A DNA stretch of 36,169 nucleotides, taken from Nitrosomonas sp. (GTDB lineage Bacteria; Pseudomonadota; Gammaproteobacteria; Burkholderiales; Nitrosomonadaceae). Each line of letters opens with the position of its first letter. The first letter of the stretch is position 1. The notes under the pieces are model-generated. The model worked only from the letters and a program-made list of their open reading frames with translations. It was not told the origin of the DNA and ran no database searches. A program made the translations under genes and the position numbers. The stretch spans positions 1 through 36,169 of the forward strand of contig JAAEXZ010000017.1 in NCBI GenBank assembly GCA_017879645.1. Reading direction: 5' to 3'. Positions 1,571-22,173 of the stretch are shown here, one piece after another.

Positions 1571-3694
1571 TCAAGGATGCGCAATGACAACCAGCGTCGG
1601 CGCGCGTTCCATGACCAGCCGCAGGCACCGTTCCATGGTTTGCGGGTCCAGTGCACCAAAACTTTCGTCGAGTACGATCACTTTGGCATCCTGCAACAGG
1701 GCTCTGGCCAGAAAAACCCGGCTGCGTTCACCATGCGATAACCGCCACCCGGTTTCGCCCACCATCTGCATAAACCCTGCCGGCATATTATCCAGCAGAT
1801 TATCCAGACCCAATTCCCGACAGAGCGACTCCGCATCGATCAGATCCTGCTGTTCAGGAGGCCAGCGCCGCCCCATCAGCACATTGAATGCCAGTGGTGC
1901 GGAAAAAATATAGTTTTCATGAAACTGTGGCGCATAAGCCACCGCCTTGCGCCAGTTCCGCATGCCCCAGGCGCCACTGTCCAGTCCCTGCAACAGCAGC
2001 AAACCCGACTCCTGTTTGCGCGCCCCACTGAGCAAAGCTGCCAGCGAGGATTTTCCGCCACCGGAAGCGCCTTGCAACAAAACACGCTCACCACCGAGAA
2101 TGCTGACATTGCAATTATCCAGTACAGGAGCGCCCTGTGCCCGGTAACGAAAAACCAGATCCCAGCCTTCGACGATCGGCATCCGTTTTCCGGATTCCTC
2201 GTCATGCTCCGCTGGAGCGTGAAAAATGGCTGGCGATTGTTCCGCTTTGGCCGCGTGAAAAATCGGTGCAACCTGCTGCCAGGCTACCCAGGCCTGTGCA
2301 AAATTGGTCAGGCTACCGGCAATTTCCGCAATGGCCCGATACCCAAGCAGCACGCCCCCCAGCACTATTGCCAAGGGCAACACATCGATTTCACCACCAA
2401 CCAATAGAGGCAAGAACCCCAGAATCCCAAGTAACAACCAACCGCGAGGCAAAATGCCATTCAGCAGAACCGCTGCTTGATCGTATTCACGCGATGCCTG
2501 CCAGTATGTCGTCAGCAGTTGATCCTCACCCTCGTGCCAGGCCTCTTCAGCTTGCTGTGCCAGCCGGGTACGATGACCGACCATGCGCTCCACCAGATCA
2601 TGTGCCATTTCCAGACGCAATGTCGTCCAGCGTTGCAAGCGTAAAAAAAGACGCCGCCCCAGCCACATCGCCACCATAGTCCAGATCAGCAGCAACAAGG
2701 CATGCAACGTGCCTATCCCGCTGCTGATCAACACGATCAGTGCCAGCACCAATTCCAGCATAGCAATCGGAACCCGGATACCGCCATTCAGTGCCAGGGC
2801 TTCAAAAGCACTGGATTCAATCACCCGTCCCAGCAATTGCCCCACACCCTGATGGCGAATGGCATCGGGCGACATGTGCAAGGCTCCGGCAAGCAAACGC
2901 TGTTTGAGTAGGGTACCGGCGCGAATCACCAGTATTCCGCTCAATCCCATTCCCAGTAGTCGCAGGGGAATCAGACTGACCAACAACAATCCCCAGGCCA
3001 TGAGCCAACCCAAGTCCATTTGCCCGTTCAGCGCACCGTGCCCGATCAGCCACCACCCGAGTATTTCCAACAGATACAGACTCAAAAAGACACCGAGAGC
3101 CATCCCGGCACCCCGGAAGATTCCGTCATATTGCAGTTGCTTCGCGAATGGACTTTCCGGTGGCAAACGCAGCAACCAGAATCCCCTGATGGTGACCGTC
3201 GCCAGTCGCTCGCGCAGCAAGGCAATGCGCACACGGGCCTGATCGCGTTCCGGTATTCTGGCAGATGCCAGCAATTGTTCAACCTCGGCTGAAAACCGGC
3301 CAGCGTACTGAACACACAAAGCCTGCGTCAGCTCCGCAATCGGCATCCGATGCACACGCAAATCCGGTCCCAGAATGTGCAATTTGCCCCTCGTATAACC
3401 GGGCAACAGCAACAAAAAATACTGTTTATTTTCCACGCTGCATTTCACCAGCGCCGGCGCCGCCGCAGACAGCAGACTCTCCATTTCGGCACCGGCTACC
3501 TGTGTGGCTTCGAGTTCGATGCCGAGCGTATCGGCTGCCCAATCCATCCAGGTATTCAAAGTCGCTTCATCAGTGAAGTGCGCCGGCGCAGTCAATTCGA
3601 TTTGCCGTACCGGCAGGTCGCATTGCCGCGCCAGAGCCGGCAAGGCTTCGGGCAAACCGGATACCGGCCAGGCCACTTCTGATAGTCTTTTCAT
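1571..3694 (-). CDS. ABC transporter, permease plus ATPase, with degenerate C39-like N-terminal domain (NHLM-type exporter subunit)
   Basis: The start chosen at 3694 overlaps the stop of the upstream gene by ATGA, giving 707 residues; an ATG at 3751 in the same frame would add 19 residues overlapping the neighbour. Residues 1-140 look like a C39-like fold (Pro-Ala-Leu-Val strand, a strand ending in GY, then HILGPD and a helix ELTQAL) without the catalytic Cys and His, so probably a non-cutting substrate-binding domain as in HlyB-type transporters. Membrane helices lie at about 195-460. The ATPase has Walker A at 542-549 (GASGGGKS), signature LSHGE at 652-656, Walker B at 672-677 (VIVLDE) and the H-loop His at 706. 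The protein stops one residue after that His, which is unusually short. It probably pairs with the C39 transporter upstream. The NHLM assignment rests on the three-gene arrangement and is from memory of that family. Confidence 0.85.
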   Translation of the reverse strand: MKRLSEVAWPVSGLPEALPALARQCDLPVRQIELTAPAHFTDEATLNTWMDWAADTLGIELEATQVAGAEMESLLSAAAPALVKCSVENKQYFLLLLPGYTRGKLHILGPDLRVHRMPIAELTQALCVQYAGRFSAEVEQLLASARIPERDQARVRIALLRERLATVTIRGFWLLRLPPESPFAKQLQYDGIFRGAGMALGVFLSLYLLEILGWWLIGHGALNGQMDLGWLMAWGLLLVSLIPLRLLGMGLSGILVIRAGTLLKQRLLAGALHMSPDAIRHQGVGQLLGRVIESSAFEALALNGGIRVPIAMLELVLALIVLISSGIGTLHALLLLIWTMVAMWLGRRLFLRLQRWTTLRLEMAHDLVERMVGHRTRLAQQAEEAWHEGEDQLLTTYWQASREYDQAAVLLNGILPRGWLLLGILGFLPLLVGGEIDVLPLAIVLGGVLLGYRAIAEIAGSLTNFAQAWVAWQQVAPIFHAAKAEQSPAIFHAPAEHDEESGKRMPIVEGWDLVFRYRAQGAPVLDNCNVSILGGERVLLQGASGGGKSSLAALLSGARKQESGLLLLQGLDSGAWGMRNWRKAVAYAPQFHENYIFSAPLAFNVLMGRRWPPEQQDLIDAESLCRELGLDNLLDNMPAGFMQMVGETGWRLSHGERSRVFLARALLQDAKVIVLDESFGALDPQTMERCLRLVMERAPTLVVIAHP

Positions 3695-6378
3695 TTCGAG
3701 TCGGCTTTGAACGGATGCAACTGGCCTTCCTCCATCCACAACCGGTTCCATGACGAATCGGCCCAGAGCGATTGCTGGAGTGTTTTCTCGGTCGCCAGCA
3801 GGGCATGAAAACGTGAACCCTCGTCGGCTGCCAGCACTGCCGGCGCAGCATCCTCGACGATCTTTCCGTCGTCCATTACCAACACCCGCTCGAACATCAG
3901 CGTCTCACTCACATCGTGCGTCACGCATAATAAGGTTGCCTGCGGCCAGGCAGCCCGCAGGCGCCGCATCTGGTGCTCGCGTTGCGACCGACTCAATCCC
4001 CGGAATGGTTCATCCAGAATGACCAAGCGTGCGGATTGTCGCAACAGACTGCGCCCCAGACGCACCCGTTGACCTTCACCACCCGACAAAAAGGCACCGC
4101 CCTCGCCCAACTGGGTCTGCAACCCCTCGGGACAATGCTTGAGCACACTGTGCAAGTCCGCTGCAGCCAATGTTTTTCCCAATGCACTCAACAAAGAAGT
4201 ATCGTGACCGTACATCAGGTTATCCAGCAGCGAGGCATTCCATAATTGAACGGCCGGATCCAGCCAAGCTGTCTCGCGGCGCAGTTGACGCAATCGTTGC
4301 GCCGTCAACGGCTCATCGTCAATTCTGACTTCTCCCTCCGACGCCTGCATCCACCCCAGCAACAATCCCACTAGCGAGGATTTACCTGCACCCGAAGACC
4401 CCACAATGGCCACGTGACTGCCGGCCGCAATGTGCAAATCGAGTTCCCGCAGTACGTCATGGCCGGCGGCTTGGGCAGTCACTCCACGTAGCGTCACCGT
4501 CACACCGACTTGCGCTACAGGAGTGGCACCCGCAGTCGGGTTGTTATTGCCGTCATGCGGTGCGGCAGCTTCGGTCTCGACCTCGTCACGCGCCCCCAGC
4601 GGCTCCATGAAACGCAAAGCGGCATTTCTCTGTGCAGGATATTGCCGAAACAACATGGCAAACTGTTGTCCCAACATCGGCAATTTCAGCGCCCAGTAGA
4701 TCAGCAGCAAAAAACCACCGGAATCGCCGACACTGACATAATGCGAGAACAGCAATCCGGCGATCATGGTCAGGCACACCACGGCCTGTACTCCTTCGAT
4801 CAACAGCGAGAGCCGCAGCGTGGCCATACTGGCACGCGCCCACTCCGTCATCAATCCCTCATGCTGACTGCGCACAGCCCGCTCGGCACAATGGGCACGC
4901 ACAGCCGACAATCCCAGCATGGCTTCCAGATAAAAACGACTCAAGGCGCCTTCATGGCTGCGCGCGCGCAAATCGCGTTCATTCAATGCCGGCTGCGCCA
5001 GTAATGGAATGCCGAGCGCTAGCAATGCCGAACAAATGGCCAGCAGCGCCAACTGTGGATCCAGCCAGATGATCCCCGCCGTGGTGAACGACAGCTCGGC
5101 AAAACTGCGCAACAATTGCCCCGTCCAGGCAGGTAACCCGCGCAGGCGATAAACCTGATGCGCACGTTCCGCCATATCCGAAATGGTGCGACTATGAAAG
5201 TAGCGATCGTTGAGTCGCGGAATCTTGCGCAGAAAAGCCTGCCTCAACCGGACTTCCAGTTGTCTGCCCTGACGCTGCAATTCGCGGACATTGGAAAATT
5301 CGATCAACAACAATGCCAGCGCCAGCAACGACACAAACAGGATTCCTGTCAGCCGTTGCCCAACCGTCTCGAAATCCCGGACCAGATCCAGCAATCCCCG
5401 AAACAGCAAGGCTTCCACCATCACCATGCCGACACCCAGCAACAGGGCAAACCCCAGCAGCAACGGTGAAGCGAGTCCAATTTCCCTGAGTAACTGCCAT
5501 AAATACCCGAATGTATTCTGCGGCTTCTCGTTCAGCGCCGCAGACAGATCGGGCGACAGGGTCTCGGTCGGTTCTGCTTCACCCACCCCGGAAATCGTCA
5601 CCAGAACAGCGCCACGCATCGCCAGTTGCTGTTCATCCGCGCCGGATTGCAACAGCACCGACCAATAACTCGGTGGAATGATCTGGCTTTCAGGATTGCT
5701 GCGTGCCTCGGCATAAATCGCCTGCAGCATGCCCAGACTGGCCGTCTTGTCGCGAACGGCACTGCTTTGCAGCAAAGCTTCGGTCATGCGCACTGCGGCA
5801 TCGAGTACTGCCAGCGAAAACCAGGTGGCATCGGCTATCGCGCTGACAATCAGGTCATCCACTTCACGCCCGTGCCGCGCCACCTTGTCGATACGTTGCT
5901 GCAATCCCTGCAAAAAGGCTTCCGAACCCGCCCAGGCACGCCAATCGTCTGCACTGACTTCATAGGTGTGACGGTACAGATCCGCAAGTAATCGCTGTTC
6001 GCGCACCCAGTGTCTGCCAAGCGCCGGATCCATGACCTGCACAAACCCACCCAGGCGTCGCCAGGCAATGACAAAATGCGTATCGCCGCCCGGCAGTTTA
6101 GTCACGACGATCGCCGGCAAAGCTGCGGGATCATCCAGTAACACATGCTCCGCAGGCAGCATCACCTGCTGCGCCTTCAGCCCCAGACGACACGCCGTTT
6201 CCTCGATCACATCGATCGATGTGCCATCGACATCGGTCTGACAGGCTTCCCGCAGGCGGCCATAACTGACACTTACTCCGTAGGCTTCCAGCAAGGCTTT
6301 CAGCGCTGCCGGTCCACAATCCATCGCCGAGGTCTGTATGACTTCCGGAATCAGCCAGCGGCGTTTGGACCAGGTCAT
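3691..6378 (-). CDS. Peptidase-containing ABC transporter (C39 peptidase, permease, ATPase)
   Basis: An 895-residue bacteriocin-type exporter that should cut leader peptides after Gly-Gly, Gly-Ala or Ala-Gly and transport the rest across the inner membrane. The C39 domain (about 1-135) has the oxyanion Gln15, catalytic Cys21 in AMDCGPAA, His101 in GDTHFVI and Asp117 in VMDPALG, so it looks active. A region of about 150 residues (140-290) not typical of these transporters follows. Membrane helices lie at about 300-580. The ATPase has Walker A around 660-667 (GSSGAGKS), signature LSGGE at 764-768, Walker B at 785-790 (LVILDE) and His821. It overlaps the genes on both sides by four bases (ATGA), so all three are translated together. 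The likely substrates are the small AG-leader peptides nearby. Confidence 0.93.
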   Translation of the reverse strand: MTWSKRRWLIPEVIQTSAMDCGPAALKALLEAYGVSVSYGRLREACQTDVDGTSIDVIEETACRLGLKAQQVMLPAEHVLLDDPAALPAIVVTKLPGGDTHFVIAWRRLGGFVQVMDPALGRHWVREQRLLADLYRHTYEVSADDWRAWAGSEAFLQGLQQRIDKVARHGREVDDLIVSAIADATWFSLAVLDAAVRMTEALLQSSAVRDKTASLGMLQAIYAEARSNPESQIIPPSYWSVLLQSGADEQQLAMRGAVLVTISGVGEAEPTETLSPDLSAALNEKPQNTFGYLWQLLREIGLASPLLLGFALLLGVGMVMVEALLFRGLLDLVRDFETVGQRLTGILFVSLLALALLLIEFSNVRELQRQGRQLEVRLRQAFLRKIPRLNDRYFHSRTISDMAERAHQVYRLRGLPAWTGQLLRSFAELSFTTAGIIWLDPQLALLAICSALLALGIPLLAQPALNERDLRARSHEGALSRFYLEAMLGLSAVRAHCAERAVRSQHEGLMTEWARASMATLRLSLLIEGVQAVVCLTMIAGLLFSHYVSVGDSGGFLLLIYWALKLPMLGQQFAMLFRQYPAQRNAALRFMEPLGARDEVETEAAAPHDGNNNPTAGATPVAQVGVTVTLRGVTAQAAGHDVLRELDLHIAAGSHVAIVGSSGAGKSSLVGLLLGWMQASEGEVRIDDEPLTAQRLRQLRRETAWLDPAVQLWNASLLDNLMYGHDTSLLSALGKTLAAADLHSVLKHCPEGLQTQLGEGGAFLSGGEGQRVRLGRSLLRQSARLVILDEPFRGLSRSQREHQMRRLRAAWPQATLLCVTHDVSETLMFERVLVMDDGKIVEDAAPAVLAADEGSRFHALLATEKTLQQSLWADSSWNRLWMEEGQLHPFKADSK

Positions 6379-7562
6379 GATGCGGGCGTGCTCCCTTTGG
6401 ACGCCGCCGGACGCGCCAGCAGTTTGCCAACCGCTCGCAACACCAGCGTCGCCGGACTGGTTGTCTCCACAGCCACCTCGACCTGTCCGGTCAGACCGTG
6501 TTGCAATGGAATATTGGGATTGTCCGCTACGATCAATAAATCCACTTGCTGAAAACCATCGCGAATCTCCTCGCCGACCCGACTGACCAAGGCATCCATG
6601 CTGCCGTACTGAGTCCAGGGAAAAGCATCCAGGCGCAAGCGCGCCTTTTGTTGAGCGAACAGGCGTCCCATGGTGTCACTGGGCTGGAACCGGGCGCTGA
6701 CTTTCAGATCGCCCAGCGGCACGATGCGGGCGATGAACTGGCCTTCTGCGAGCAAAAATGAACCGACCTGAATTTCCGGCGCAATTTCTCCGATGCGACC
6801 GCTAATGGGAGAGCGGATTCTATGTTTCTCAATCGACTGCTCCAGACGGGCAATTGTTGTCAACGATAGCTCCTGTTGCCCCTGTAGCTTGGCCAGTTCC
6901 TTTTTGAGGGACTCGAGCTTGACACCATCGCGGTTAGTGACGTTTTTGGCTTCCCATTCCAGCCGCCGGATTTCACTGCTGGTGGCATCCACCGAAGCTT
7001 GCAATTGGTTGGCTTCCGCGTTTGCCTTCAACCAGTCGGCATCGGTGACATAGCCTTGATCACGCAATCCCGCCAGGCGGCGCACCTTGTCCTTGGTTAC
7101 CACGGCCAGGTGCTGCGCTTCACGCAGTCTGGCCTTTGCCGTAACGATGGCGGATTGATTGGACTGAGTCCCCGTGGTCAGGGTGCCTTTCTGCGCATCA
7201 ATCTCGCGGGTCAGCGCATTGATCTGATTTGACAGTCCCAGGTTACGCGCCCTTTCTTCGGTCAATTTCAACTGCTCGGTACGATCATCCAGTTGCAGCA
7301 GTAATTGCCCGGCGGAGACTTCCTGACCCAGCACCAGCGCCTTGCTGGTTACACTGCCAGACACTTGCGCTGTCAAGGGATGCGCTGCGGATTGCACTTC
7401 CAGACGCGCTTCCCGACTGGTTTCAAAAACCGTTACTGATGCAAAAAAAAACCATCCCAGCCAGATACTGAGCAGCAACGCGGACAATGACCACCCCAAC
7501 CAGCTCAACAAGGGTACATCGGTAGCCAGCGAGCGTGTGGTCGAGGAAAACGGGGTAGGCAT
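6375..7562 (-). CDS. HlyD-family periplasmic adaptor (membrane fusion protein)
   Basis: A 395-residue adaptor for the two ABC transporters downstream. One membrane helix (about residues 18-41) follows a short cytoplasmic tail. Two half-lipoyl segments (about 57-95 and 245-285, the second with HRIRSPISGRIGEI) flank a long coiled coil (about 97-240), and a beta-barrel region follows. It is the first gene of the exporter operon and overlaps the next by ATGA. I see no ribosome binding site before the ATG at 7562. No outer-membrane TolC-type gene is in the window, so an outer-membrane partner, if used, is encoded elsewhere. NHLM-type systems have an adaptor of similar length. Confidence 0.92.
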   Translation of the reverse strand: MPTPFSSTTRSLATDVPLLSWLGWSLSALLLSIWLGWFFFASVTVFETSREARLEVQSAAHPLTAQVSGSVTSKALVLGQEVSAGQLLLQLDDRTEQLKLTEERARNLGLSNQINALTREIDAQKGTLTTGTQSNQSAIVTAKARLREAQHLAVVTKDKVRRLAGLRDQGYVTDADWLKANAEANQLQASVDATSSEIRRLEWEAKNVTNRDGVKLESLKKELAKLQGQQELSLTTIARLEQSIEKHRIRSPISGRIGEIAPEIQVGSFLLAEGQFIARIVPLGDLKVSARFQPSDTMGRLFAQQKARLRLDAFPWTQYGSMDALVSRVGEEIRDGFQQVDLLIVADNPNIPLQHGLTGQVEVAVETTSPATLVLRAVGKLLARPAASKGSTPAS

Positions 7563-7773
7563 GAAAAAGGAGTGATGAAATCGCTAGAAACGCGTTGATC
7601 GATAATGGAAATTTGCGTTTGAAAGTGAATCTATCAGAAATTGGTGCAGAGTTTCGCAGATAAATGAGTTATTTGCAATTACCGGCGATGGAATCACCGA
7701 GCAACTCTTCTCAGGGTTCCTCTGCACAAAACCGATTTTGATTGGAGGTCAATTAACTGCATGACAGGCTTAT

Positions 7774-7811
7774 AAAAAAATTGCCCGCACTCCTACCTGT
7801 GCAGGCAATTT
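7774..7811 (-). terminator. Strong intrinsic terminator between peptide gene 1 and the exporter operon
   Basis: Read on the minus strand, a 13-base stem (AAATTGCCTGCAC pairing with GTGCGGGCAATTT, one G-T pair) with an 8-base loop is followed directly by a run of T. It lies 29 bases after the stop of the first 30-residue peptide gene and about 210 bases before the adaptor gene. Most peptide transcripts should end here, which would keep peptide mRNA more abundant than exporter mRNA. Confidence 0.85.
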
Positions 7812-7839
7812 CATTTCATACAACTGGAGGTCGTATTAA

Positions 7840-7932
7840 TTAGCGATGGTTAGGACCATGATGGCCTCTATCATCACCAGGCTTATCATCGGCGCCATGT
7901 CTTCCAGCTTTCAAATTGGTTTTAACTTGCAT
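7840..7932 (-). CDS. 30-residue His/Asp/Gly-rich peptide 1, MQVKTNLKAG head (putative exported peptide precursor)
   Basis: A 30-codon gene with a good ribosome binding site (AAAGGA, 7 bases before the ATG). The head MQVKTNLKAG is shared with peptide 2 and, in pattern, with the peptide at 594-656. Leu7 at -4 and Ala9-Gly10 at -2/-1 fit a C39 double-glycine-type cleavage site, which would release a 20-residue tail. The tail has His12, 24, 25 and 29, Asp15, 16, 20 and 21, four Gly and two Pro, and no Cys, Ser or Thr, so lanthionine or thiazole chemistry is excluded. It is hydrophilic, disordered in character and could bind metal ions. The gene stands upstream of the exporter operon in the same direction, separated by a strong terminator. 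Of ten differences from the sister gene, eight are synonymous, which is the best evidence that it is a real gene. Function is not known. Confidence 0.8.
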   Translation of the reverse strand: MQVKTNLKAGRHGADDKPGDDRGHHGPNHR

Positions 7933-8023
7933 GTTATCTTCCTTTAACATTAGTTAATGCACATTGCAGTGCAACACGTTTTGATAAGACTTGACGATTG
8001 CACGGTTTCGTCTTGTCTTGCTA

Positions 8024-8040
8024 CGTTTATTCCCTCAAAC
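8024..8040 (-). promoter_or_regulatory. GAGGGAATAAACG element upstream of peptide gene 1
   Basis: On the minus strand this reads GTTTGAGGGAATAAACG. It lies 92 bases upstream of the start codon of peptide gene 1 and is matched 93 bases upstream of peptide gene 2. GGGAATAAA has the look of a -35 element for an extracytoplasmic-function sigma factor, but no matching -10 is certain, so the type of site is an inference. Confidence 0.5.
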
Positions 8041-8175
8041 CTCATATTGCGTTCAAACTGAATTCAATTATTTTAAAAATAACGAGCCAATCACATTTCT
8101 CACAAAGACTCAGACTATAATCTCGTTCGTTTTTTACAAGTACAGGCTTAAGGGCACTTCACCACCGACGATTAA

Positions 8176-8268
8176 TTAACGGTGGTTTGGGCCGTGATTA
8201 CCTCTATCATCACCAGGTTTATCATCGGCGCCATGTTTTCCAGCTTTCAAATTTGTTTTAACTTGCAT
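8176..8268 (-). CDS. 30-residue His/Asp/Gly-rich peptide 2, MQVKTNLKAG head (putative exported peptide precursor)
   Basis: Sister of the gene at 7840-7932 with two amino-acid changes, Arg11 to Lys and His24 to Asn. The frame stays open upstream to an ATG at 8379, but the start at 8268 is chosen because it has an AAAGGA ribosome binding site and matches the start of the sister gene, whereas the 37 residues upstream have no counterpart there. Head, predicted Ala-Gly cleavage point and tail composition are as in peptide 1. A short inverted repeat (ACCACCG / CGGTGGT, 8161-8186) overlaps the stop but has no T run, so transcripts may read on into peptide gene 1, 243 bases downstream. Confidence 0.8.
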   Translation of the reverse strand: MQVKTNLKAGKHGADDKPGDDRGNHGPNHR

Positions 8269-8360
8269 GTTTTTTCCTTTAATGTTTTTAAAAAAAGCAC
8301 TCTCATATGCGAGTAACAATGTAAGAAAACAAGAATTACTCTTTTCTTTTTTTCTTACTC

Positions 8361-8377
8361 CGTTTATTCCCTCGAAC
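8361..8377 (-). promoter_or_regulatory. GAGGGAATAAACG element upstream of peptide gene 2
   Basis: On the minus strand it reads GTTCGAGGGAATAAACG, one base different from the copy upstream of peptide gene 1, at the same distance from the start codon. The A/G-rich bases just downstream are also partly alike in the two copies. Probable promoter or activator site. Confidence 0.5.
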
Positions 8378-9302: not shown

Positions 9303-11291
9303 ATGAAGCAAACAGACTCAAAACGCACGGTGTTTGGAGTCATGGCAGCAGCCATCCTTTTCACGGGCATACAGGGCACGACATACAGTGCCCCCGTACC
9401 CGGCGGAACGCTGAATCCACTGAAGATACCGAAATATGTCAGGCCATTGACGATTCTCCCTCCCATGCCAAAATCGGCCAATCCACAAGGCTTTACCGGA
9501 GATTATTACGAAATTGCAGTGCGCCAATTCCATCAGGAGGTAGTACCCAACCTAAGTACCACGGTCTGGGGTTATGGTTCGATTACCCATCACAGAAGTT
9601 TCAGTTATCCGGCCTATCCGATCGAGGCCACAGCCAACAAACCGGTTCGCGTCAAATGGATCAACGACTTGAAGCAGGTCAATGGGAAATTCTTACCGCA
9701 TCTGCTGCATATCGACCAAACATTGCACTGGGCCAATCCGGCATCAGCGGACACCATGGGAGAAGACCCCACACGATATACCGGCCCCGTACCCATGGTT
9801 CCACACCTGCACGGCGCACATGTCACACAGGATAGCGATGGTTATCCCGAAGCCTGGTTTTTACCGAATGCCACCAATATACCGGTCAGCTTCGCCAAAG
9901 TCGGCACCAAGTACGAGCAGTTTAAAAACGAAGCCCAAACGGCTTATGGGCAAACCTGGGGACCCGGTACATCTGTCTATCAGTATCCGAATGATCAGCG
10001 TGCTGCTGCACTCTGGTACCATGACCACTCTCTGGGCATGACGCGCGTCAATGTCTATGCAGGCCCAGCCGGTTTCTACTTTATTCGTGGCGGCACCAGC
10101 GATTTGACATCCGGTCTCCCCAAGGGCGCTTATGAAATTCCTTTACTGATCCAAGATCGTTCGTTCAACAAGGACGGATCGCTGTTCTATCCGAATAATC
10201 GCGCCTTCTTCGAAGGACTTGCCAAAGGCAAACTGAAAATTCCATTCACGCCAGACACCACAATCGATGGCGAGCAAAGTACCGTTGCACCGGCCTGGAA
10301 TCCCGAATTCTTTGGCAACACCATGGTCGTCAATGGTAAAACCTGGCCCTACCTGAATGTCGAAAAACGGCGTTACCGTTTTCGCATCCTGAATGGCTCC
10401 GATACCCGTTTCCTGATCCTCAAAATGAGCAACAGCCAGAAATTCTGGGTCATTGGCAATGACGGCGGCTTCCTGCCGACACCGGCAAAAGTCGATACAT
10501 TGCTTGTGGCCCCTGCCGAACGCTTCGATGTAATTGTCGATTTCAGCAATGCGCCGCTGAAAAGCAAAATCACGCTGAAAAACATCGGCCCCGACTCACC
10601 TTTCAGCGGTGGCTCGCCCGGAGTGGACTTTGATTCTGCCGACCCGGATACCACCGGGCAAGTCATGCAGTTCCGGGTTGTAGCGAGCAAAGGCACCGAT
10701 CACAGCCAGCACCCGGCAAAAGTGCAGCTTCCTGCCATTTCACGCATCACAGGCACACCCGTCGTTCGTCATTTGTCATTGAATGAAATGGAATCCAGCA
10801 CGGTTTATATCCCGGTGGATGCAACTGGCGCACCCGTTTTAAACAATCTGGGCGAACTCGTTGCCATTTCCAGAAATGACGCCAACGCAGCACCGTTTGG
10901 GCCTGAAACGGCTGAGCTTGGCTCCATGGATGCCAGTGGCACACCTGTACCCAGCCTGTGGATGGATCCCATTTCAACGCAACCCACCATCGGCCAGACC
11001 GAAGAATGGGTGCTCTACAATTACACCGAAGATGCACACCCGATACATTTACACCAGGTGCAATTCGAAGTCATCGAACGTATCGATGTAGCAGGCGCAA
11101 AAACGCCTGCCCAGCCATGGGAAACCGGATTCAAGGACACGATCATTGCCTACCCGGGCGATGGTGTGACCCCGGGCATTACGCGTGTCAAAGCCAAATT
11201 CGACATCATCGGATTATTTGCGTGGCACTGTCACATTCTGTCGCATGAGGACAATGAGATGATGCTGCCCATCCAAACCGTATCACCCTGA
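9303..11291 (+). CDS. Secreted multicopper oxidase (CotA/bilirubin-oxidase-like)
   Basis: A 662-residue laccase-type enzyme that would oxidise phenols, bilirubin-like compounds or metal ions with reduction of O2 to water. The N-terminus is a signal peptide (Arg8, hydrophobic stretch, TYSA at 27-30), so it acts in the periplasm or outside. All four copper motifs are present: HLHG at 168-171, WYHDH at 238-242, HPIHLH near 580, and HCHILSHEDNEMM near 642-654. The type-1 copper axial ligand is Met (ten residues after the Cys), which suggests a moderate potential. The spacing and three-cupredoxin length fit CotA or bilirubin oxidase rather than the shorter Nir-type proteins. The ribosome binding site is AAAGGGG, 8 bases before the ATG. 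The next gene encodes another secreted protein in the same direction 153 bases on, so they are probably functionally linked. Confidence 0.92.
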   Translation: MKQTDSKRTVFGVMAAAILFTGIQGTTYSAPVPGGTLNPLKIPKYVRPLTILPPMPKSANPQGFTGDYYEIAVRQFHQEVVPNLSTTVWGYGSITHHRSFSYPAYPIEATANKPVRVKWINDLKQVNGKFLPHLLHIDQTLHWANPASADTMGEDPTRYTGPVPMVPHLHGAHVTQDSDGYPEAWFLPNATNIPVSFAKVGTKYEQFKNEAQTAYGQTWGPGTSVYQYPNDQRAAALWYHDHSLGMTRVNVYAGPAGFYFIRGGTSDLTSGLPKGAYEIPLLIQDRSFNKDGSLFYPNNRAFFEGLAKGKLKIPFTPDTTIDGEQSTVAPAWNPEFFGNTMVVNGKTWPYLNVEKRRYRFRILNGSDTRFLILKMSNSQKFWVIGNDGGFLPTPAKVDTLLVAPAERFDVIVDFSNAPLKSKITLKNIGPDSPFSGGSPGVDFDSADPDTTGQVMQFRVVASKGTDHSQHPAKVQLPAISRITGTPVVRHLSLNEMESSTVYIPVDATGAPVLNNLGELVAISRNDANAAPFGPETAELGSMDASGTPVPSLWMDPISTQPTIGQTEEWVLYNYTEDAHPIHLHQVQFEVIERIDVAGAKTPAQPWETGFKDTIIAYPGDGVTPGITRVKAKFDIIGLFAWHCHILSHEDNEMMLPIQTVSP

Positions 11292-11444: not shown

Positions 11445-12812
11445 ATGCAATTTACAATCCATAAATCACTGACTGGCAGCATCAGCAAAAAACTGACGAC
11501 AACCCTTGCATCCATTATCACCCTTGTTGGATTAAGCACGCAGCCCGTCCAATCTGCATTGACCGACAAAGGTCCCATCCACCCCATCAATAAATTCCCA
11601 TCCTGGGTATCCGACGCCAATGGTAATGCCCTGCAGCTCTGCCTTGATGGGAATGGAGCCGGAATTTGCACTTTCAGCCCGGCAATCGCCGGCAATGCCT
11701 TTTCCGAAGCAACCGGTTTCGGTATCGAGGCATTCTGGTGGAATGCCAGCGCCACACTCAATCTCGTCGGCGGTCGAAAAGCACTGCTGGTGCAAGCGTT
11801 GGAAGCTACCTACTTGCCAGGCACGCCAGCCGCAACGACACAATTTGCTTTTGGTCGCATCAGATTGCGCGTCGATATTCCGGTTGCAGGGCACTATAAA
11901 ATCTGGCATCCCTCATTGAATGAAAACAATGGCTGCCAACCCGAAGAATTCAGCGCAAATGCTGGCACCCGTGCGATCAATGTCACTCGCGATATTGGGG
12001 GCGGCACACCTTTTGACAATATCCTGAAAGGCGAGGTGGGTCCGTTCCTCATTTGGGACCCCAATATCCTGCCGGCTGCACCCGCTGGTTATGTCGGCGA
12101 TCCAAATGTCAATCATGAAGTCATCGGGGGACATTGCGATATCAATTACTTCCGTATCGAAGGACCGGCTGGTGTCAATCTGGACGGCGCCGGTAACAAT
12201 TTTGTACAAACCAACTTGTTTTCGGTACAAGGAAAAATTTTCGATCCCACGAATATTCCACCCAGTATCGAGCCTATTCGTGCAACCTACTTCCGCACCA
12301 CCAATGCCTCCACTGGCAATACGACCGCACGCATCAATGTCTGGGTCAAAGCGCCACCCACTGCATCCGTAACCATCACCGATCTGCCACAAGCCAATCA
12401 AAATGGTGATATGACCTACGATGGTGGCAGTACATTCTTCAAGCGCTCCCTGTTAAACGCCACTTATGGCCCGCATATCCCGGCTCAGGTAACGGTTGTG
12501 GCCACCAGCGACAACGGCATGTTCTCCACGCAGGCGATGAATATCATTGACCAAGTCAACATCCAGTCCGTGAGTTGGGTGGCAGCAACGCAAACACTGA
12601 AGGTCGTTGCCTTATCCAGTGACAAGATAAGTGTCAACTCGGGAATTGCGCCTGAACTGACCCTTAAGGCAGGAATCAATACATACCCAATGACACAGTC
12701 TGGTGCAGCAGGCCGATACGAACTGACGCTGACGGGCATTACCGTACCGCCTGCACGCGTAACGGTAACCTCATCAAAAGGCGGCTCGGATTCCGAAGAA
12801 ATTCCGGATTAG
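11445..12812 (+). CDS. Secreted protein of unknown function, partner of the multicopper oxidase
   Basis: A 455-residue protein with a signal peptide (about residues 1-38, ending PVQSA). The mature start has HPINKFPSW and a conserved-looking CLDGNGAGIC segment. A central beta-rich part holds several aromatic and Cys residues (NNGCQPEEF, GGHCDINYF). The last about 170 residues look like immunoglobulin- or fibronectin-like strands rich in Thr and Val (VTVVATSDNGMFS, VTSSKGGSDS). I have an unverified memory of similar secreted proteins in other proteobacteria, without a known function. A weak AGGACA lies before the ATG. It is placed 153 bases after the oxidase with no clear terminator between them, and a terminator follows it, so the two are likely one transcript. 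A role as substrate carrier, surface anchor or partner of the oxidase is an inference. Confidence 0.75.
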   Translation: MQFTIHKSLTGSISKKLTTTLASIITLVGLSTQPVQSALTDKGPIHPINKFPSWVSDANGNALQLCLDGNGAGICTFSPAIAGNAFSEATGFGIEAFWWNASATLNLVGGRKALLVQALEATYLPGTPAATTQFAFGRIRLRVDIPVAGHYKIWHPSLNENNGCQPEEFSANAGTRAINVTRDIGGGTPFDNILKGEVGPFLIWDPNILPAAPAGYVGDPNVNHEVIGGHCDINYFRIEGPAGVNLDGAGNNFVQTNLFSVQGKIFDPTNIPPSIEPIRATYFRTTNASTGNTTARINVWVKAPPTASVTITDLPQANQNGDMTYDGGSTFFKRSLLNATYGPHIPAQVTVVATSDNGMFSTQAMNIIDQVNIQSVSWVAATQTLKVVALSSDKISVNSGIAPELTLKAGINTYPMTQSGAAGRYELTLTGITVPPARVTVTSSKGGSDSEEIPD

Positions 12813-13194
12813 CTCGGAAAGTTCACTCCCTATTTGCCTCTCGCCATGACCCAATGGCCTGATGGCTTGATGACATCCCCGGCCAGTCCGGGGATTTTCA
12901 TTTACTTCCCTCTTTTCATGACAACCTGAAGCGATTGACCACCTGTGGGTTGGTCGGTCATTTCAAAAAACAAGTCATGTGATGCATCGCGAACCAGCCT
13001 GATCCTTTTTGCAGCCAAGCTGAACGCAGTTTTATCCTTCGCTTCCTTACTGACCAATACCATTCAGTCACGATTCAGCCGCGGAATTGCACAATGATCC
13101 CCGAGATACCGAGCAAGTGGGTATCGGGCAACTGAAACATCACGCTGGCATTACCGAAATCATGCTAGCCAATTTTCGATGCAGGAGAAACATC
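12813..13194. other. Non-coding stretch between the oxidase pair and the His-rich lipoprotein
   Basis: Apart from the terminator at 12875-12899 I see no gene. The open frame of the lipoprotein gene extends upstream to 13087, but that extension has no ribosome binding site and would place the lipoprotein signal peptide inside the protein. Confidence 0.6.
12875..12899 (+). terminator. Intrinsic terminator after the oxidase partner gene
   Basis: An 8-base stem ATCCCCGG / CCGGGGAT with a 5-base loop (CCAGT), followed by TTTT. It lies 63 bases after the stop of the secreted partner gene. Confidence 0.85.
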
Positions 13195-13548
13195 ATGACA
13201 ATTAGAAAAATACTTATATCCCTGATACTGATCAGTATGGTCTATCTGGCTGGATGTATGACAACGCCTTATTATGGCAGTACCGGATATTATCAAACCA
13301 CTGGCGCCAGCTATGGTTATGGCTATGGATACGGTTACCAACCTTCCTATTATGTCGGTCAAACCATCATCGGCGGTGGCTTACGCTACTACAACAATGG
13401 GCACGATCGGCACCGGCATCATTCGCATGGCGGACATAGACATCATCAGCATCAACTTGGCGGGCAATGGAACTCTGGCGGCAGACACCATCATCATGGC
13501 CATGGCGGACACTCGGGCGGTCACCGTGGCGGACATCACCGCAGATGA
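13195..13548 (+). CDS. Histidine-rich, Tyr/Gly-rich lipoprotein
   Basis: The start at 13195 has a good ribosome binding site (CAGGAG, 8 bases upstream) and gives 117 residues. A lipobox YLAGC puts the lipidated Cys at residue 21. After a Tyr/Gly repeat region (GYGYGYGY near 41-48), the last about 50 residues contain 18 His in runs such as RHHHHGHGG. The tail would bind Cu, Ni or Zn ions at the outer or inner membrane surface. It lies downstream of a secreted copper enzyme, so storage or buffering of copper is a reasonable idea, but no regulator or known copper operon member is next to it. Low-complexity sequence prevents family assignment. Confidence 0.8.
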   Translation: MTIRKILISLILISMVYLAGCMTTPYYGSTGYYQTTGASYGYGYGYGYQPSYYVGQTIIGGGLRYYNNGHDRHRHHSHGGHRHHQHQLGGQWNSGGRHHHHGHGGHSGGHRGGHHRR

Positions 13549-13838
13549 GAAACCCTACAATGCAGCGCCGTCAATCAACAACCTCCGGTGGGAATGAACC
13601 CCTCCCCTACTCACCCCACCGGGAGTTGCCCAACTGCCATATTCTCTGGCAGACAACAAACCGGTTCCGGCTAGGATAACCCGGCACCAAGCCAAACGAC
13701 CCGTCTCGGCAAGAACGCAAATACATTGCTACGCATTTTCGCTTTAGCGTATCATTATGCCCTCACGAACCCGAGCGCTTGAACTGATCTCAAAGCTCGA
13801 ACAATCAATCACTTGATCGATCATCTATCTGTAATGGA

Positions 13839-14183
13839 ATGAGAAAGTTACTGGTAACGCTATGCCTGCTGATCCTGCAATTCACTGCCGGATCCCATGT
13901 GGCATTCAGTCAGCAGACCCGGCATTTCCCAGTCAACAGCAAACTGGGACATCTGTCCGCGGTGGCATTTCCATTATTCACCATCGATGGTCAGCAGGTC
14001 TTGATGGGAGCAGGCGGACAAATTCGCGGCACGGACAATCTGATCATTCTACCGAGCACGGCAAACTATAATGGCCTCGTTCGCTACCAACTGGATATCA
14101 ACGGCACACTGCACCGCTTATGGATTCTGACTCCTGATGAAGCCAAACAGGCCAAGCAGGAAGAAGCCCAAAAACCGAAATAA
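13839..14183 (+). CDS. Small exported protein of unknown function
   Basis: A 114-residue protein with a clear signal peptide (about residues 1-24, ending HVAFSQQ). The mature part has short beta-like segments (VAFPLFTIDGQQVLMGAGGQIRG read in parts) and a Lys/Glu/Gln-rich end. I do not recognise a family. It lies 39 bases before miaB in the same direction, so it may be on the same transcript. No strong ribosome binding site is seen. Confidence 0.75.
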   Translation: MRKLLVTLCLLILQFTAGSHVAFSQQTRHFPVNSKLGHLSAVAFPLFTIDGQQVLMGAGGQIRGTDNLIILPSTANYNGLVRYQLDINGTLHRLWILTPDEAKQAKQEEAQKPK

Positions 14184-14222
14184 TATTACATTCATTTTTC
14201 AATCTTGATCCTCGTATAGATC

Positions 14223-15560
14223 GTGAGTAATAAGTTATACATCAAAACATTTGGCTGCCAGATGAACGAGTACGACTCGGAAAAGATGGCGGATGTACTC
14301 AATGCAGCCTACGGTATGGAACCCACCGACGACCCCGCCCAAGCCGACATCATTCTGTTCAATACCTGTTCCGTGCGCGAAAAGGCTCAGGAAAAGGTAT
14401 TTCATGACCTGGGGCGCGTGCGTCACCTCAAGGACAGCAACCCCAATCTGCTGATTGGCGTCGGCGGCTGTGTGGCAAGTCAGGAAGGCAAGGCGATCGT
14501 CAGTCGCGCACCGTTTGTCGATGTCGTGTTCGGTCCCCAGACCCTGCATCGTCTACCACAGTTGATTGAGAACCGCAAAACTACCGGGCGCCCGCAAGTC
14601 GATATCTCCTTTCCGGAAATCGAAAAATTCGACCATCTGCCACCCGCTCGCACCGAAGGTGCCACGGCCTTCGTTTCGATCATGGAAGGTTGCAGCAAGT
14701 ATTGCAGTTTCTGTGTCGTTCCCTATACGCGTGGCGAGGAAGTATCCCGTCCACTCGAAGATGTCCTCACCGAAATCGCCATCCTGGCTGGGCAAGGTGT
14801 CAAGGAAGTTACATTGCTGGGGCAAAATGTCAATGCCTACATGGGCAAAATGCCCGACAATGACCTGGCTGATTTTGCATTATTACTGGAGTATCTGCAC
14901 GATATTCCGGGAATCGAACGCATCCGCTACACCACATCGCACCCCAAGGAATTCACCTCGCGCCTGATCCAGGCTTACAGTGAGTTACCCAAACTCGTCA
15001 ACCACCTGCACCTGCCGGTGCAATCGGGATCCGACCTGATTCTGGCTGCGATGAAGCGTGGATACACGGCCCTGGAGTACAAATCGATCATACGCAAATT
15101 GCGCGCTATCCGTCCCGACATTTCGTTATCTTCAGACTTCATCGTAGGATTTCCGGGCGAAACCGAGGCCGACTTTGCCGCCACCATGAAACTGATCGAG
15201 GATATGAATTTTGACGAATCCTACAGTTTCATCTATAGCCCGCGTCCCGGCACCCCCGCTGCCGATCTGCCGGATGACACGCCACAGGAGATAAAACTGG
15301 AACGTTTGCAGCGCCTGCAAGCTCAGATCAATCAGCAAGCCCGCAAGATCAGCATGCAAATGGTGGGATCGGTACAGCGCGTACTCATGGAAGGTGTCTC
15401 GAAAAAAAATGCCGAAGAATTCTTCGGCCGTACCGACAACAACCGTGTCGTCAATCTGTCCTGCGATCCCGGCCTGATCGGTCATTTTGTCAACGTACGC
15501 ATCACCGAAGCCAAATCCCACACCTTGCGCGGCGAGTGGGTTGCGAATCCACCCGCATAG
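14223..15560 (+). CDS. miaB: tRNA-2-methylthio-N6-isopentenyladenosine synthase MiaB
   Basis: A 445-residue radical-SAM methylthiotransferase that adds the 2-methylthio group to isopentenyl-adenosine 37 in tRNAs. The N-terminal domain has Cys12, Cys49 and Cys83 for the auxiliary iron-sulfur cluster. The radical-SAM motif is Cys157, Cys161 and Cys164 (CSKYCSFC). These positions match the known enzyme closely. A TRAM domain occupies about the last 65 residues. The start codon is GTG at 14223, chosen because the conserved first strand ([11 protein letters not shown]) follows directly. It heads the run miaB-ybeZ-ybeY-corC, a common gene order in proteobacteria. Confidence 0.97.
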
Positions 15561-15624
15561 GTTTTACTTGCAAAGTATCGCTTCCGCTGAGAGAATCCTG
15601 ATATTGAATTAGCCTTGCTCGACA

Positions 15625-16629
15625 TTGAAGTCAAAACCACTCGAAATCTCATTTTCACCGGCCGATAATCAGCGGCTAGCCAATCTTTGCGGCACTCTGG
15701 ATGAAAACCTGAAACAGGTTGAAACAGCTCTGGATGTCATCATTTCACGCCGCGGTGAACATTTCAGCCTGTCGGGAAAATTACCCCAGACACAAATGGC
15801 AGCGCAGGCCCTACAACATTTCTACGATCATTCGCAACATCATCTGAGCCTGGAGCAAATACAACTGGGACTGATCGAAGTACTTAACCGCCAACATTAC
15901 CCGGTCGACGTAAAAAGCATCACGACTGAAGCGGAAGATGCGCGCCAGCTCCCGGGCCCACCACAACTGATGACACGCCGCAGCAACCTGTACGGTCGCA
16001 CGCCTCGTCAGTCGCAATATCTGCAGCAGATCCAGGAACATGACATCACCTTCGCAGTGGGCCCAGCCGGTACCGGCAAGACCTACCTTGCCGTCGCCAG
16101 CGCCGTCGATGCCCTGGAGCGTGGTCTGGTATCCCGCCTGATCCTGGTACGCCCTGCGGTTGAAGCGGGTGAACGCCTTGGTTTTCTGCCCGGTGACATG
16201 ACGCAGAAAGTCGACCCCTATTTACGCCCGCTTTATGATGCCTTATACGATCTGATGGGATTCGACAAGACAAGCAAGCAGTTCGAGCGCAATACCATCG
16301 AAATCGCACCGCTGGCATTCATGCGCGGACGCACGCTGAACCAGTCCTTCATCATTCTCGACGAAGCGCAGAACACGACACCGGAACAGATGAAAATGTT
16401 TCTGACCCGCATCGGTCTGGGCTCCAAAGCAGTAATCACGGGTGATGTCACGCAAATTGACCTGCCCAAGCACCAGAAGAGTGGATTGGTGGATGCGCAG
16501 ACCATACTCAACGATATTCGCGGTATTGCCTTCACTCACTTCAAGTCGGAAGATGTGGTCAGACACCCGCTGGTGCAGCGAATCGTCAATGCCTACGAAA
16601 AACATGACAAACAAAACCAGCAAACCTGA
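15625..16629 (+). CDS. ybeZ: PhoH-like ATPase YbeZ
   Basis: A 334-residue P-loop NTPase of the PhoH family, which works with the rRNA endonuclease YbeY in RNA and ribosome quality control. An N-terminal KH-like region (about 1-110) precedes the Walker A motif GPAGTGKT at 146-153, the conserved VRPAVEAGERLGFLPG at 175-190 and Walker B ILDEAQN at 244-250. The start is a TTG at 15625, preceded by no clear ribosome binding site. It is chosen because the family-typical N-terminus follows and no ATG occurs in range. It overlaps ybeY by 26 bases. Confidence 0.95.
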   Translation: MKSKPLEISFSPADNQRLANLCGTLDENLKQVETALDVIISRRGEHFSLSGKLPQTQMAAQALQHFYDHSQHHLSLEQIQLGLIEVLNRQHYPVDVKSITTEAEDARQLPGPPQLMTRRSNLYGRTPRQSQYLQQIQEHDITFAVGPAGTGKTYLAVASAVDALERGLVSRLILVRPAVEAGERLGFLPGDMTQKVDPYLRPLYDALYDLMGFDKTSKQFERNTIEIAPLAFMRGRTLNQSFIILDEAQNTTPEQMKMFLTRIGLGSKAVITGDVTQIDLPKHQKSGLVDAQTILNDIRGIAFTHFKSEDVVRHPLVQRIVNAYEKHDKQNQQT

Positions 16630-17113
16630 TCCAGAAACACAGCCGGTGACCTTCAAACTGGCAGTGCAATTTGCCACGGAGCATAAGGATTTACCCACGC
16701 GTCCGCAATTCCGCTGCTGGGTCAAAGCGGCGCTGATGCAGCATGCCGAAATCGTGCTGCGTCTGGTGGATGAAACGGAAGGCCGTGAACTGAATCGTCA
16801 GTTCCGCCACAAGGATTACGCTACCAATGTGCTCACCTTTGCTTACGACGATACGGTTCCACTGACTGGCGATATCGTGCTGTGCGCACCCGTGATCCGC
16901 GCCGAGGCACAGCAGCAGCACAAAGATCTCTTGGCGCATTATGCGCACCTGACCGTACATGGCATTCTACACCTGCAGGGATACGATCATCTGGAGGACG
17001 CCGAAGCGACAGCAATGGAACAACTGGAAACACGGATACTGGCGCAACTGGGTTACGCCGATCCGTATCGGGAACATGACCACCGTGAGGCAATCGACGC
17101 AATCCGGCACTGA
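16604..17113 (+). CDS. ybeY: Endoribonuclease YbeY (rRNA maturation factor)
   Basis: A 169-residue single-domain zinc enzyme required for 16S rRNA 3' maturation and ribosome quality control. The metal motif is HGILHLQGYDH with His119, His123 and His129. The start at 16604 is chosen because only here does the length fit the family. The frame is open further upstream inside ybeZ to 16442, and that part is a shadow. An ATG at 16589 is an alternative. The short Lys/Pro-rich N-terminus (about 14 residues) is not conserved in character. It lies in the miaB-ybeZ-ybeY-corC run. Confidence 0.95.
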   Translation: MTNKTSKPDPETQPVTFKLAVQFATEHKDLPTRPQFRCWVKAALMQHAEIVLRLVDETEGRELNRQFRHKDYATNVLTFAYDDTVPLTGDIVLCAPVIRAEAQQQHKDLLAHYAHLTVHGILHLQGYDHLEDAEATAMEQLETRILAQLGYADPYREHDHREAIDAIRH

Positions 17114-17191
17114 TGCCCTCAAGGCACGCCAGATCAAACCGTATGATACCCACTATTTACAAAATGACTGCGATGACTCAATACCACCACC

Positions 17192-18040
17192 ATGGACGAT
17201 CCTTCACCTAAAAGCGGCTGGTTAGAACGGCTTGGCGCCCTGCTGATCCGCAAACCGGAAGACCGCGAACAACTCATCAACCTGCTGCACTCTGCCTTCA
17301 AGAGCAATCTGCTGGATTCCGATGCGCTCAGCATGATCGAAGGTGTCATGCAAGTTTCCGAAATGCAGGCACGCGACATCATGGTGCCGCGCTCGCAGAT
17401 GGATGTCGTGGACATCAGCGAGAAACCCGACCGGTTCATCCCGTTTGTCATCGAAGCCGCGCATTCACGCTTTCCCGTCACCGAAGGTTCGGAAGACGAA
17501 GTTATCGGCATTCTGCTGGCCAAGGACTTGCTGCGCTACTATGCCGATCCCGAAGAATTCAACATCCGCGACATGCTGCGCCCGGCCGTGTTCATTCCTG
17601 AATCCAAGCGACTCAATGTCCTGCTCAAGGAATTTCGCAGCAATCGCAATCACATGGCCATCGTCGTCAATGAGTACGGCGGTGTCGCCGGACTGGTAAC
17701 GATCGAGGACGTACTGGAGCAAATCGTCGGAGAAATCGAGGATGAATACGATTTTGACGACGAAGAAGCCAACATCGTCATGGAATCCGACGGCACCTAC
17801 CGCGTCAAGGCCATTACCGAAATCGACAATTTCAATGAAATACTCGACACACACTTCGACAATGATGATTTCGACACCATTGGCGGTCTCGTACTGAATA
17901 AATTCGGTCGGGTACCGGCGCGACACGAATCTGTCGTCATCGGTCAGTTCAAATTCACCGTGCAGCGCGTCGACAGCCGCCGACTCCACATGCTCAAGGT
18001 GGCAAAACTTGAACCAGCCGTGGAAACACCCGCCGAATGA
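17192..18040 (+). CDS. corC: CorC/HlyC-type CBS-domain protein (magnesium/cobalt efflux family)
   Basis: A 282-residue soluble protein of the CorC type without the membrane domain. Two CBS repeats lie at about 65-190 (beginning ARDIMVPRSQMDVVD, second repeat with VVNEYGGVAGLVTIEDVLEQIVGEIEDEYD), followed by the CorC_HlyC transporter-associated domain at about 200-278. It is linked genetically to Mg/Co efflux in enteric bacteria. Position after ybeY is the usual one; the apolipoprotein N-acyltransferase gene (lnt) that often follows is absent here and recJ comes next. Confidence 0.93.
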   Translation: MDDPSPKSGWLERLGALLIRKPEDREQLINLLHSAFKSNLLDSDALSMIEGVMQVSEMQARDIMVPRSQMDVVDISEKPDRFIPFVIEAAHSRFPVTEGSEDEVIGILLAKDLLRYYADPEEFNIRDMLRPAVFIPESKRLNVLLKEFRSNRNHMAIVVNEYGGVAGLVTIEDVLEQIVGEIEDEYDFDDEEANIVMESDGTYRVKAITEIDNFNEILDTHFDNDDFDTIGGLVLNKFGRVPARHESVVIGQFKFTVQRVDSRRLHMLKVAKLEPAVETPAE

Positions 18041-22011: not shown

Positions 22012-22173
22012 GGATCGATTTCCTCTTGAATCAGATAACAAATTAAAGCTCATCCGCCGTGTATGCTTCACTTTTCACGACGCACTAAACCCCCGGTAAA
22101 CGCACTCCTGGAACCCGCATTGCGCTCAAGCTGAATCATTCCGGCACATCAAGAACCCACTCCAGATCGCTGA

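Follow-up and report, generated by a model that had tools for sequence, protein, structure and literature searches.

A short head shared by tandem 30-codon genes beside a C39 exporter in Nitrosomonas: a putative minimal leader with relatives in several phyla

Introduction

The cleavage motif described for C39 peptidases is Gly-Gly, Gly-Ala or Gly-Ser, that is, with glycine at position -2 (PMC6363468). The leaders known for PCAT exporters have the form L(-12)xxxE(-8)L(-7)xxxxGG, in which residues -10 to -4 are helical and residues -7 and -12 form a hydrophobic knot (PMC6959990), and the pneumococcal exporters use positions -4, -7, -12 and -15 (PMC7018657). For LahT150, changing Leu-7 to Lys strongly lowered cleavage, and the shortest synthetic substrate reported in the same section kept 13 leader residues (PMC6363468, section 8). 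Leader lengths average 83 residues for NHLP, 70 for Nif11 and 24 for TIGR01847, and in the NHLP and Nif11 groups one leader type is joined to many unrelated cores, some of which are encoded far from the exporter (PMC2887384). For the graspetides, the leader peptidase was described as unknown in 2022 (PMC8939145), and a 2026 paper states that cleavage behind a GG motif has meanwhile been demonstrated for one graspetide C39 transporter (PMC13039773).

Here a pair of very short genes is analysed, together with the exporter next to it, in a stretch of 36,169 nucleotides from Nitrosomonas sp. (contig JAAEXZ010000017.1), referred to below as the window. The pair resembles the double-glycine systems (ComC, the plantaricin and lactococcin type, CtA with PCAT1, and LahA and ProcA with LahT) in having a small precursor, a putative N-terminal leader that ends in small residues, a hydrophobic residue at -4, and a C39-ABC exporter with the same catalytic residues. 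It resembles NHLM systems (TIGR03794, TIGR03796 and TIGR03797) in the combination of an HlyD protein, a C39-ABC protein and an ABC protein without C39 domain. The comparison below suggests that it belongs to neither.

Results

Two genes of 30 codons plus TAA are found on the minus strand of the window, as the original prediction had claimed. Copy 1 extends over 7840-7932 (ATG at 7932, TAA at 7840) and copy 2 over 8176-8268 (ATG at 8268, TAA at 8176), with the translations MQVKTNLKAGRHGADDKPGDDRGHHGPNHR and MQVKTNLKAGKHGADDKPGDDRGNHGPNHR, respectively. They have a common head, MQVKTNLKAG (7903-7932 in copy 1 and 8239-8268 in copy 2), followed by a 20-residue tail, RHGADDKPGDDRGHHGPNHR in copy 1 and KHGADDKPGDDRGNHGPNHR in copy 2, and each has its own ribosome binding site, AAAGGA, a few bases 5' of the ATG. 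Alternative starts are present, namely an in-frame ATG six codons 5' of copy 1 and an upstream in-frame TTG for copy 2; the starts at 7932 and 8268 are favoured because of the ribosome site and the family-wide head. The copies differ at 10 nucleotides over the 30 codons, eight of the differences being synonymous and two not (R11K and H24N). The expected synonymous fraction is 0.237, which gives a probability of 2.8e-4 for eight or more of ten and bears out the claim of selection on the protein. Judged by their sequence, these are real genes under selection.

A degenerate head pattern has two matches in the 2.8 Mb genome, both being the two copies, and the reversed pattern, used as a control, has none across 25 genomes. 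Neither Pfam nor NCBIfam has a model for the short head peptides, and neither window copy matched NCBIfam at E up to 1, which gives no sign of a nitrile-hydratase-like or Nif11 leader. Among plasmids there was no match to the peptide or the region, and one exporter relative (37%). Letter strings of the head or tails led to no related paper in the open-licence literature.

The exporter genes are downstream of the peptide genes on the same strand, which confirms the C39-ABC operon adjoining the pair. In order, they encode an HlyD-type periplasmic adaptor of 395 residues (6375-7562, minus strand; Pfam HlyD_3, with TIGR01843 and TIGR03794 below their cut-offs), a C39 peptidase-ABC permease/ATPase of 895 residues (3691-6378, minus strand; Pfam Peptidase_C39, ABC_membrane and ABC_tran), and a second ABC permease/ATPase without a C39 domain (1571-3751, minus strand; Pfam ABC_tran). 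The true start of the second ABC protein is probably near 3694; its tblastn alignments begin at residues 8-26, mostly 20-23. The exporter genes have a G+C content of 57-58%, versus 51.5% for the window. The term "NHLM-type" that had been applied to the locus fits the three-gene layout, which is seen again in other phyla, but not the proteins, all three of which score far below the NHLM model cut-offs (22.9 against 156.2 bits for TIGR03794, 185.5 against 853.3 for TIGR03796, and 96.2 against 709.4 for TIGR03797).

The C39 domain aligns with its PDB relatives PCAT1, ComA and LahT. In an alignment of 33 homologues (the window exporter and 32 of the 35 other distinct exporters found), residues Q15, C21, H101 and D117 are invariant, and because these are the catalytic Gln, Cys, His and Asp, the peptidase has presumably been kept active. 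A cognate C39-ABC exporter with its catalytic residues is therefore in place, as in the double-glycine systems. The C39 domain is also the best conserved part of the exporter, with 53-66% identity to the window protein versus 31-51% for the rest and 25-42% for HlyD, and a mean majority fraction in the alignment of 0.72 versus 0.49-0.67 for the other parts, as would be the case for a domain that reads a conserved tag. The exporter model has a mean pLDDT of 78.8, with a helical insert at about residues 143-227 between the C39 and membrane domains.

The head departs from the leaders known for such domains. The original prediction held that Leu at -4 and a final Ala-Gly are what C39 peptidases require, and that the head is a short version of a double-glycine leader. 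Leu at -4 agrees with this, and the ten-residue head is indeed tied to a C39 exporter. However, the described motif has Gly at -2, and both window copies have Ala there; position -7 is Lys rather than hydrophobic, and the head ends before -12 and -15. These three points lie outside the known C39 rules and count against reading the head as a leader, and its ten residues contrast with the average of 24 for TIGR01847 (PMC2887384). In place of the helix from -10 to -4 of the PCAT leaders (PMC6959990), the head has an alternating, strand-like pattern, with hydrophobic residues at -10, -8 and -4, Thr or Ser at -6 and Ala at -2. On an extended strand these would share one face, and the Lys residues at -9 (replaced by Gln in the window), -7 and -3 would lie on the opposite face, a pattern from which we infer that the head may bind the C39 domain in extended form.

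About 104-105 nucleotides before each ATG, on the minus strand, there is an upstream element, TTTGAGGGAATAAAC for copy 1 (8025-8039) and TTCGAGGGAATAAAC for copy 2 (8362-8376); the pattern TTYGAGGGAATAAAC has two sites genome-wide with one mismatch allowed, one before each copy. Each copy also has a predicted 5' leader with a hairpin on the same strand, at 7933-8028 for copy 1 (z -1.73) and 8269-8365 for copy 2 (z -3.70), the values for relatives being -3.64 and -5.02 for two genes of a second Nitrosomonas genome (G068) and -4.55, -2.69 and -3.01 for three methanotroph genes. On the 3' side of copy 1, before the exporter operon, lies a strong terminator-like hairpin (7770-7816, minus strand), a 14-pair stem followed by a T run with a fold of -21.1 kcal/mol and z -6.14, which is absent from the list of a consensus terminator scan. 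The peptide genes are therefore probably transcribed apart from the exporter operon.

In the methanotroph loci L108/L223 and L224, TGAACCTTTTG is followed by CATTAAC and then by two hairpins about 100 nucleotides before the ATG of the head gene, an arrangement that resembles an ECF-type promoter with a structured 5' leader. This likeness, judged by eye, is limited to the Nitrosomonas and methanotroph loci. A family-wide ECF-like promoter with TGAAC was considered and rejected: among the matches listed, it occurs in 10 of 103 upstream regions of genes with a ribosome site, where shuffling predicts 5.7, and part of these ten are the head gene's own ATGAACGT in a tandem copy.

Within the Nitrosomonadaceae, 11 of 125 genomes matched the peptide with E up to 1, the head itself being present only in the window's own genome and in G068; the exporter, at E up to 1e-40, is found in the same two genomes. 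The system is thus no trait of the Nitrosomonadaceae. G068 is of the same genus and carries a pair of such genes in the corresponding position, with the tails KHGADDPAGDDRGNHGAGHK and RRGRGGHDDGPNHQ, the first differing from copy 2 at 5 of 20 residues and the other having lost six residues. Copy 2 and its G068 relative are 77% identical (E 4.4e-11), and the C39-ABC proteins 94%. An even sample of 399 genomes of the order has the exporter at E up to 1e-100 in the window's genome only, and a stricter head pattern run on 369 genomes of the class was likewise found there only.

Outside the family, the degenerate head pattern was run over one genome per species and gave at least 143 matches in at least 110 stretches, a set that was listed by the pattern and is no census of taxonomic make-up. 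At least 110 matches have a ribosome site, taken as any of four 4-mers within 13 bases; this criterion is loose, and a few matches are surely due to chance (e.g. in L020 and L093). Among the matches listed, those with a ribosome site represent 102 distinct proteins of up to 300 residues, 80 of them having 15-35 residues and many only 15-18. They are typically tiny genes that start with the head, in the consensus form MK[VI]K[TS][NK][VIL]KAG, and tandem copies are common. The 77 stretches concerned are from Acidobacteriota (37), Myxococcota (14), Pseudomonadota (11, Gammaproteobacteria being among the groups), Chloroflexota (8) and Planctomycetota (3), with one each from four other phyla, some of which are surely chance. 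On this evidence the window genes are members of a large, unannotated family of tiny genes.

Still among the matches listed, position 2, which is free in the pattern, is Lys in 72 of the 102 proteins versus 5 of 32 matches without a ribosome site, and at position 5 Thr or Ser is seen in 101 of the 102 proteins versus 21 of 30 matches without a site. For pairs from one locus (n=48), identity is 88% over the head and 42% over the tail; the former is partly a product of the pattern, which fixed several head positions including Ala at -2. The tails closest to those of the window (HGADD...GH) come from Methylobacter, another Methylococcaceae genome and Nitrosomonas only. A Pro directly follows the tag in 19 of the 102, and the tail has 8 residues or fewer in 42. 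Neither 20-residue tail of the window pair contains Cys, Ser or Thr, and so they lack the core residues of lanthipeptides, thiazole peptides and disulfide bacteriocins; this earlier observation holds for the window but not for the family, in which 13 of the 92 short members listed have a tail Cys.

Some individual loci may be mentioned here. In L162, from a Terriglobia genome (G878), nine tandem head genes are downstream of the exporter at 12011-17360, and several of the tails have two Cys, for example PHGCGSGGCMHAA. In a myxobacterium (L173) and a gammaproteobacterium (L070) the head is followed by the tail motif NPQPDPP, a string for which no paper was found in the open-licence literature. 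In a planctomycete (L099), one stretch contains five near-identical head genes of 17 residues, and no exporter was detected in the genome.

With the window proteins as queries, and among the matches listed, the exporter was found in 21 of 79 stretches that have a match with a ribosome site and in 0 of 31 without (P 4e-4), and a head gene is on the strand of the exporter in 17 of the 21. Where the stretch has no exporter, the genome has one elsewhere in 25 of 34 cases versus 1 of 13 controls (P 6e-5); this whole-genome search covered 50 of the 110 listed loci, 37 with a ribosome site and no local exporter, one or a few per genome, and 13 without a site. The remaining 9 of these 34 genomes with a plausible head gene, that of L099 among them, have no exporter at E 1e-60. 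Cultured carriers whose genomes yielded head genes as well as the exporter include Minicystis rosea, Nannocystis and Methyloglobulus morosus. Together with two genomes out of two within the Nitrosomonadaceae, the counts support the proposed co-occurrence of peptide and exporter.

The exporter is rare in general, being found in 6 of 199 genomes of an Acidobacteriota sample, the centre genome included. The exact head pattern is in two of the 199, both with the exporter; since these are the centre itself and a genome known from the pattern scan, they add little; four of the six exporter genomes in this sample have no exact match. Three more Acidobacteriota exporters were inspected, one of which has a variant head gene, MKVETDVKAGGAIWVGDGRGNHNETIVG. 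In Myxococcota the exporter is found in 27 of 377 genomes, and a peptide-blind set of 28 exporter loci (414 kb) was taken from 26 of them, leaving out the centre. These loci contain five head-start genes with a ribosome site at a score of 12 or more, in 3 of 28 loci, against none in the reversed control, and six against one at a score of 10; 31 unrelated stretches contain no head-start gene with a ribosome site. Head elements at any frame position in 50 exporter stretches number 24 versus 0 for the reversed pattern at score 12 and 16 versus 0 at score 14. A head element scoring 14 or more is found in 9 of the 28 Myxococcota loci and in none of the other 19, and therefore many exporters would serve distant peptides or have other cargo. 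Of 20 exporter stretches from peptide-bearing genomes, three have a head nearby.

The head is not confined to the start of genes. Among the matches listed, 12 of the 102 proteins have two or more heads, up to 13 in L125, with NHNQ-type tails between them, and position 1 of the internal heads is Leu in 35 of 44, which implies that the module is independent of the start codon. In L092, the gene for a repeat protein of this kind follows an operon encoding an ECF sigma factor, HlyD, C39-ABC and ABC proteins.

A further arrangement is seen in Myxococcota, beside exporters of the same subfamily, in the precursor genes L277:11836-12030, L282:5317-5514, L282:5777-5974 and L283:15689-15868. All four precursors exceed the cut-off of the microviridin model NF033738, and MvdD-related ATP-grasp genes are beside them, below the equivalog cut-offs and strongly related. 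Each precursor has the docking motif PFF[AM]RF[LV]E, then V[KR]T[GD][VL]KAG, and then the core TMKYPSD. That the KAG element falls between the docking motif and the core is the strongest individual point in favour of a cut between leader and core. A variant in L275, which was found without imposing the Ala, ends in Gly-Gly. The family thus shares with the microviridin graspetides of classes II and III that have C39 transporters both the exporter subfamily and, in L277, L282 and L283, a head variant; the window peptides differ from them in lacking both the docking motif and the TxKYPSD core, and the window proteins scanned include no ATP-grasp neighbour.

Other genes of the window were also considered. 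Unlike in the NHLP and Nif11 systems, no maturase was found next to the peptide genes; among the window proteins scanned the one candidate is a MiaB-like radical SAM protein (14223-15560), which looks like a tRNA enzyme. Tail modification may nevertheless occur elsewhere in the family, to judge from the Cys tails of G878 and the ATP-grasp genes of Myxococcota. The M24 peptidase at 832-1515 was rejected as a part of the system, since tblastn matched it in none of the loci searched, among them G068; this gene and the one at 33949-35421 are markedly AT-rich, with 38% and 44% G+C versus 51.5% for the window. A 592-residue protein with RTX calcium-binding repeats (22174-23952) adjoins a PEP-CTERM protein (21271-22071). 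A secreted-looking multicopper oxidase (9303-11291) is divergent from the peptide genes and kept in G068, and a different one is near the Methyloglobulus peptide.

Discussion

The head is most likely a portable recognition-and-cleavage tag, which in the window genes makes up the whole leader. According to this proposal, the products of both genes would be 30-residue precursors from which small peptides are secreted, with a minimal tag for address and cleavage in their first ten residues, of the form [hydrophobic]-K-[VI]-K-[TS]-x-[VIL]-K-A-G. This would dock on the C39 domain of the adjoining exporter, which would cut after Ala-Gly, and the 20-residue tail, rich in His, Asp, Gly and Arg, would pass out of the cell by way of both ABC proteins, HlyD and a TolC whose gene lies elsewhere. 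Translation, docking, cleavage and export of the window peptides are steps that we infer; taken together, the view of the two genes as precursors that are cut after Ala-Gly and exported is a probable one. The tag would be portable across phyla, serving as a whole leader, as a spacer in multi-copy precursors, or as a junction behind the ligase-docking part of microviridin precursors.

Several other explanations deserve consideration. That the window ORFs are due to chance or are relics is suggested by their very small size and the lack of a Pfam or NCBIfam model, and can be set aside almost with certainty, given the excess of synonymous changes, the ribosome sites, the conservation in G068 and outside the family, and the empty reversed-pattern controls. 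A structural role, in which the head is a β-strand unit rather than a leader and the peptides assemble as amyloid-like or solenoid fibres of which the multi-copy proteins are long versions, would account for the alternating hydrophobic pattern, and the repeat protein of L092 was indeed modelled as β-rich, with a weak and non-significant match to the CsgA fibril (E 0.25). That model was built without an alignment, has a pLDDT of 63 and matched nothing in Foldseek at E up to 0.001, for which reason the repeat protein was rejected as a fold; in addition, many members listed are too short for comfort on this account at 15-18 residues, the window tails are strongly hydrophilic, and the microviridin junction is left unexplained. 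We regard such a role as very unlikely. A closer competitor is that the C39 domain reads the head as a docking tag but leaves it uncut, as degenerate C39 domains do, with the whole 30-mer being secreted or trimmed by another protease. A Pro after the tag makes an unlikely cut site, and it is found in 19 of the 102 listed members; Lys at -7 and Ala at -2 are also unlike cleaved leaders. Against this, the Gln, Cys, His and Asp that are invariant in the 33 homologues speak for a peptidase kept active, and the element sits at the leader-core junction of the microviridin precursors, which makes an uncut tag an improbable reading, though not a negligible one.

Cleavage by the C39 domain being the preferred reading, the function of the released tail as an extracellular ligand, be it a signal or a metal (copper) binder, is a guess. 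The Nitrosomonas and Methylococcaceae hosts depend on copper ammonia or methane oxygenases, and their tails are rich in His and Asp, those of the HGADD members presumably beginning with X-His-Gly after cleavage; a multicopper oxidase gene is also 1 kb from the window peptides and 1.3 kb from the L224 peptide. From composition and host, secreted copper ligands are thus plausible for this subgroup. On the other hand, there are 8-13 Cu-oxidase_2 matches per genome and none within the stretch fetched around the peptides of the two related loci G1120 and G1121, so that the multicopper oxidase was left as a weak hint, and the G068 relative of copy 1 and the Methyloglobulus peptide have no His at tail position 2; on balance we hold the copper role to be rather unlikely. 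Peptide signalling is somewhat easier to entertain, and we treat it as a possibility short of an expectation. Tails of 8 residues or fewer, as in 42 of the 102 members listed, have the size of known pheromones, and genes for an ECF sigma factor, a Ser/Thr kinase and a TPR protein each occur near the exporter in 6 of 42 exporter stretches. The same genes occur in 4, 9 and 3 of 89 other stretches, many of them peptide-bearing and shorter, which leaves the enrichment unproven, and these neighbours were not retained as a link to the family. No receptor gene was identified in the window.

By the features compared here, the window genes work like a double-glycine peptide system and yet appear to stand outside the canonical double-glycine leaders, NHLM and the graspetides; our verdict, made from sequence comparison, is a new leader type within C39-dependent peptide export. 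More tentatively, with the balance tipping slightly against it, the family may be an unrecognised class of secreted micropeptides of several phyla, with a cargo often of 5-20 residues and a "KAG" tag of 8-10 residues acting as whole leader, multicore spacer and RiPP junction element. The C39 domain would read this tag in extended (strand) form, unlike the helical reading by PCAT1 and LahT, and the cargo, left unmodified, would function outside the cell as signals or metal ligands.

If the proposal is true, a readable tag would bring to light secreted peptides of a class overlooked in gene calling, of which most members have 15-35 codons. It would assign each peptide a likely exporter and predict the mature peptide from sequence alone, which could be tested directly by peptidomics in Acidobacteriota, Myxococcota, methanotrophs and nitrifiers. 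It would also broaden the rules for leader recognition by C39 domains, and provide a candidate protease for the microviridin-type precursors of myxobacteria.
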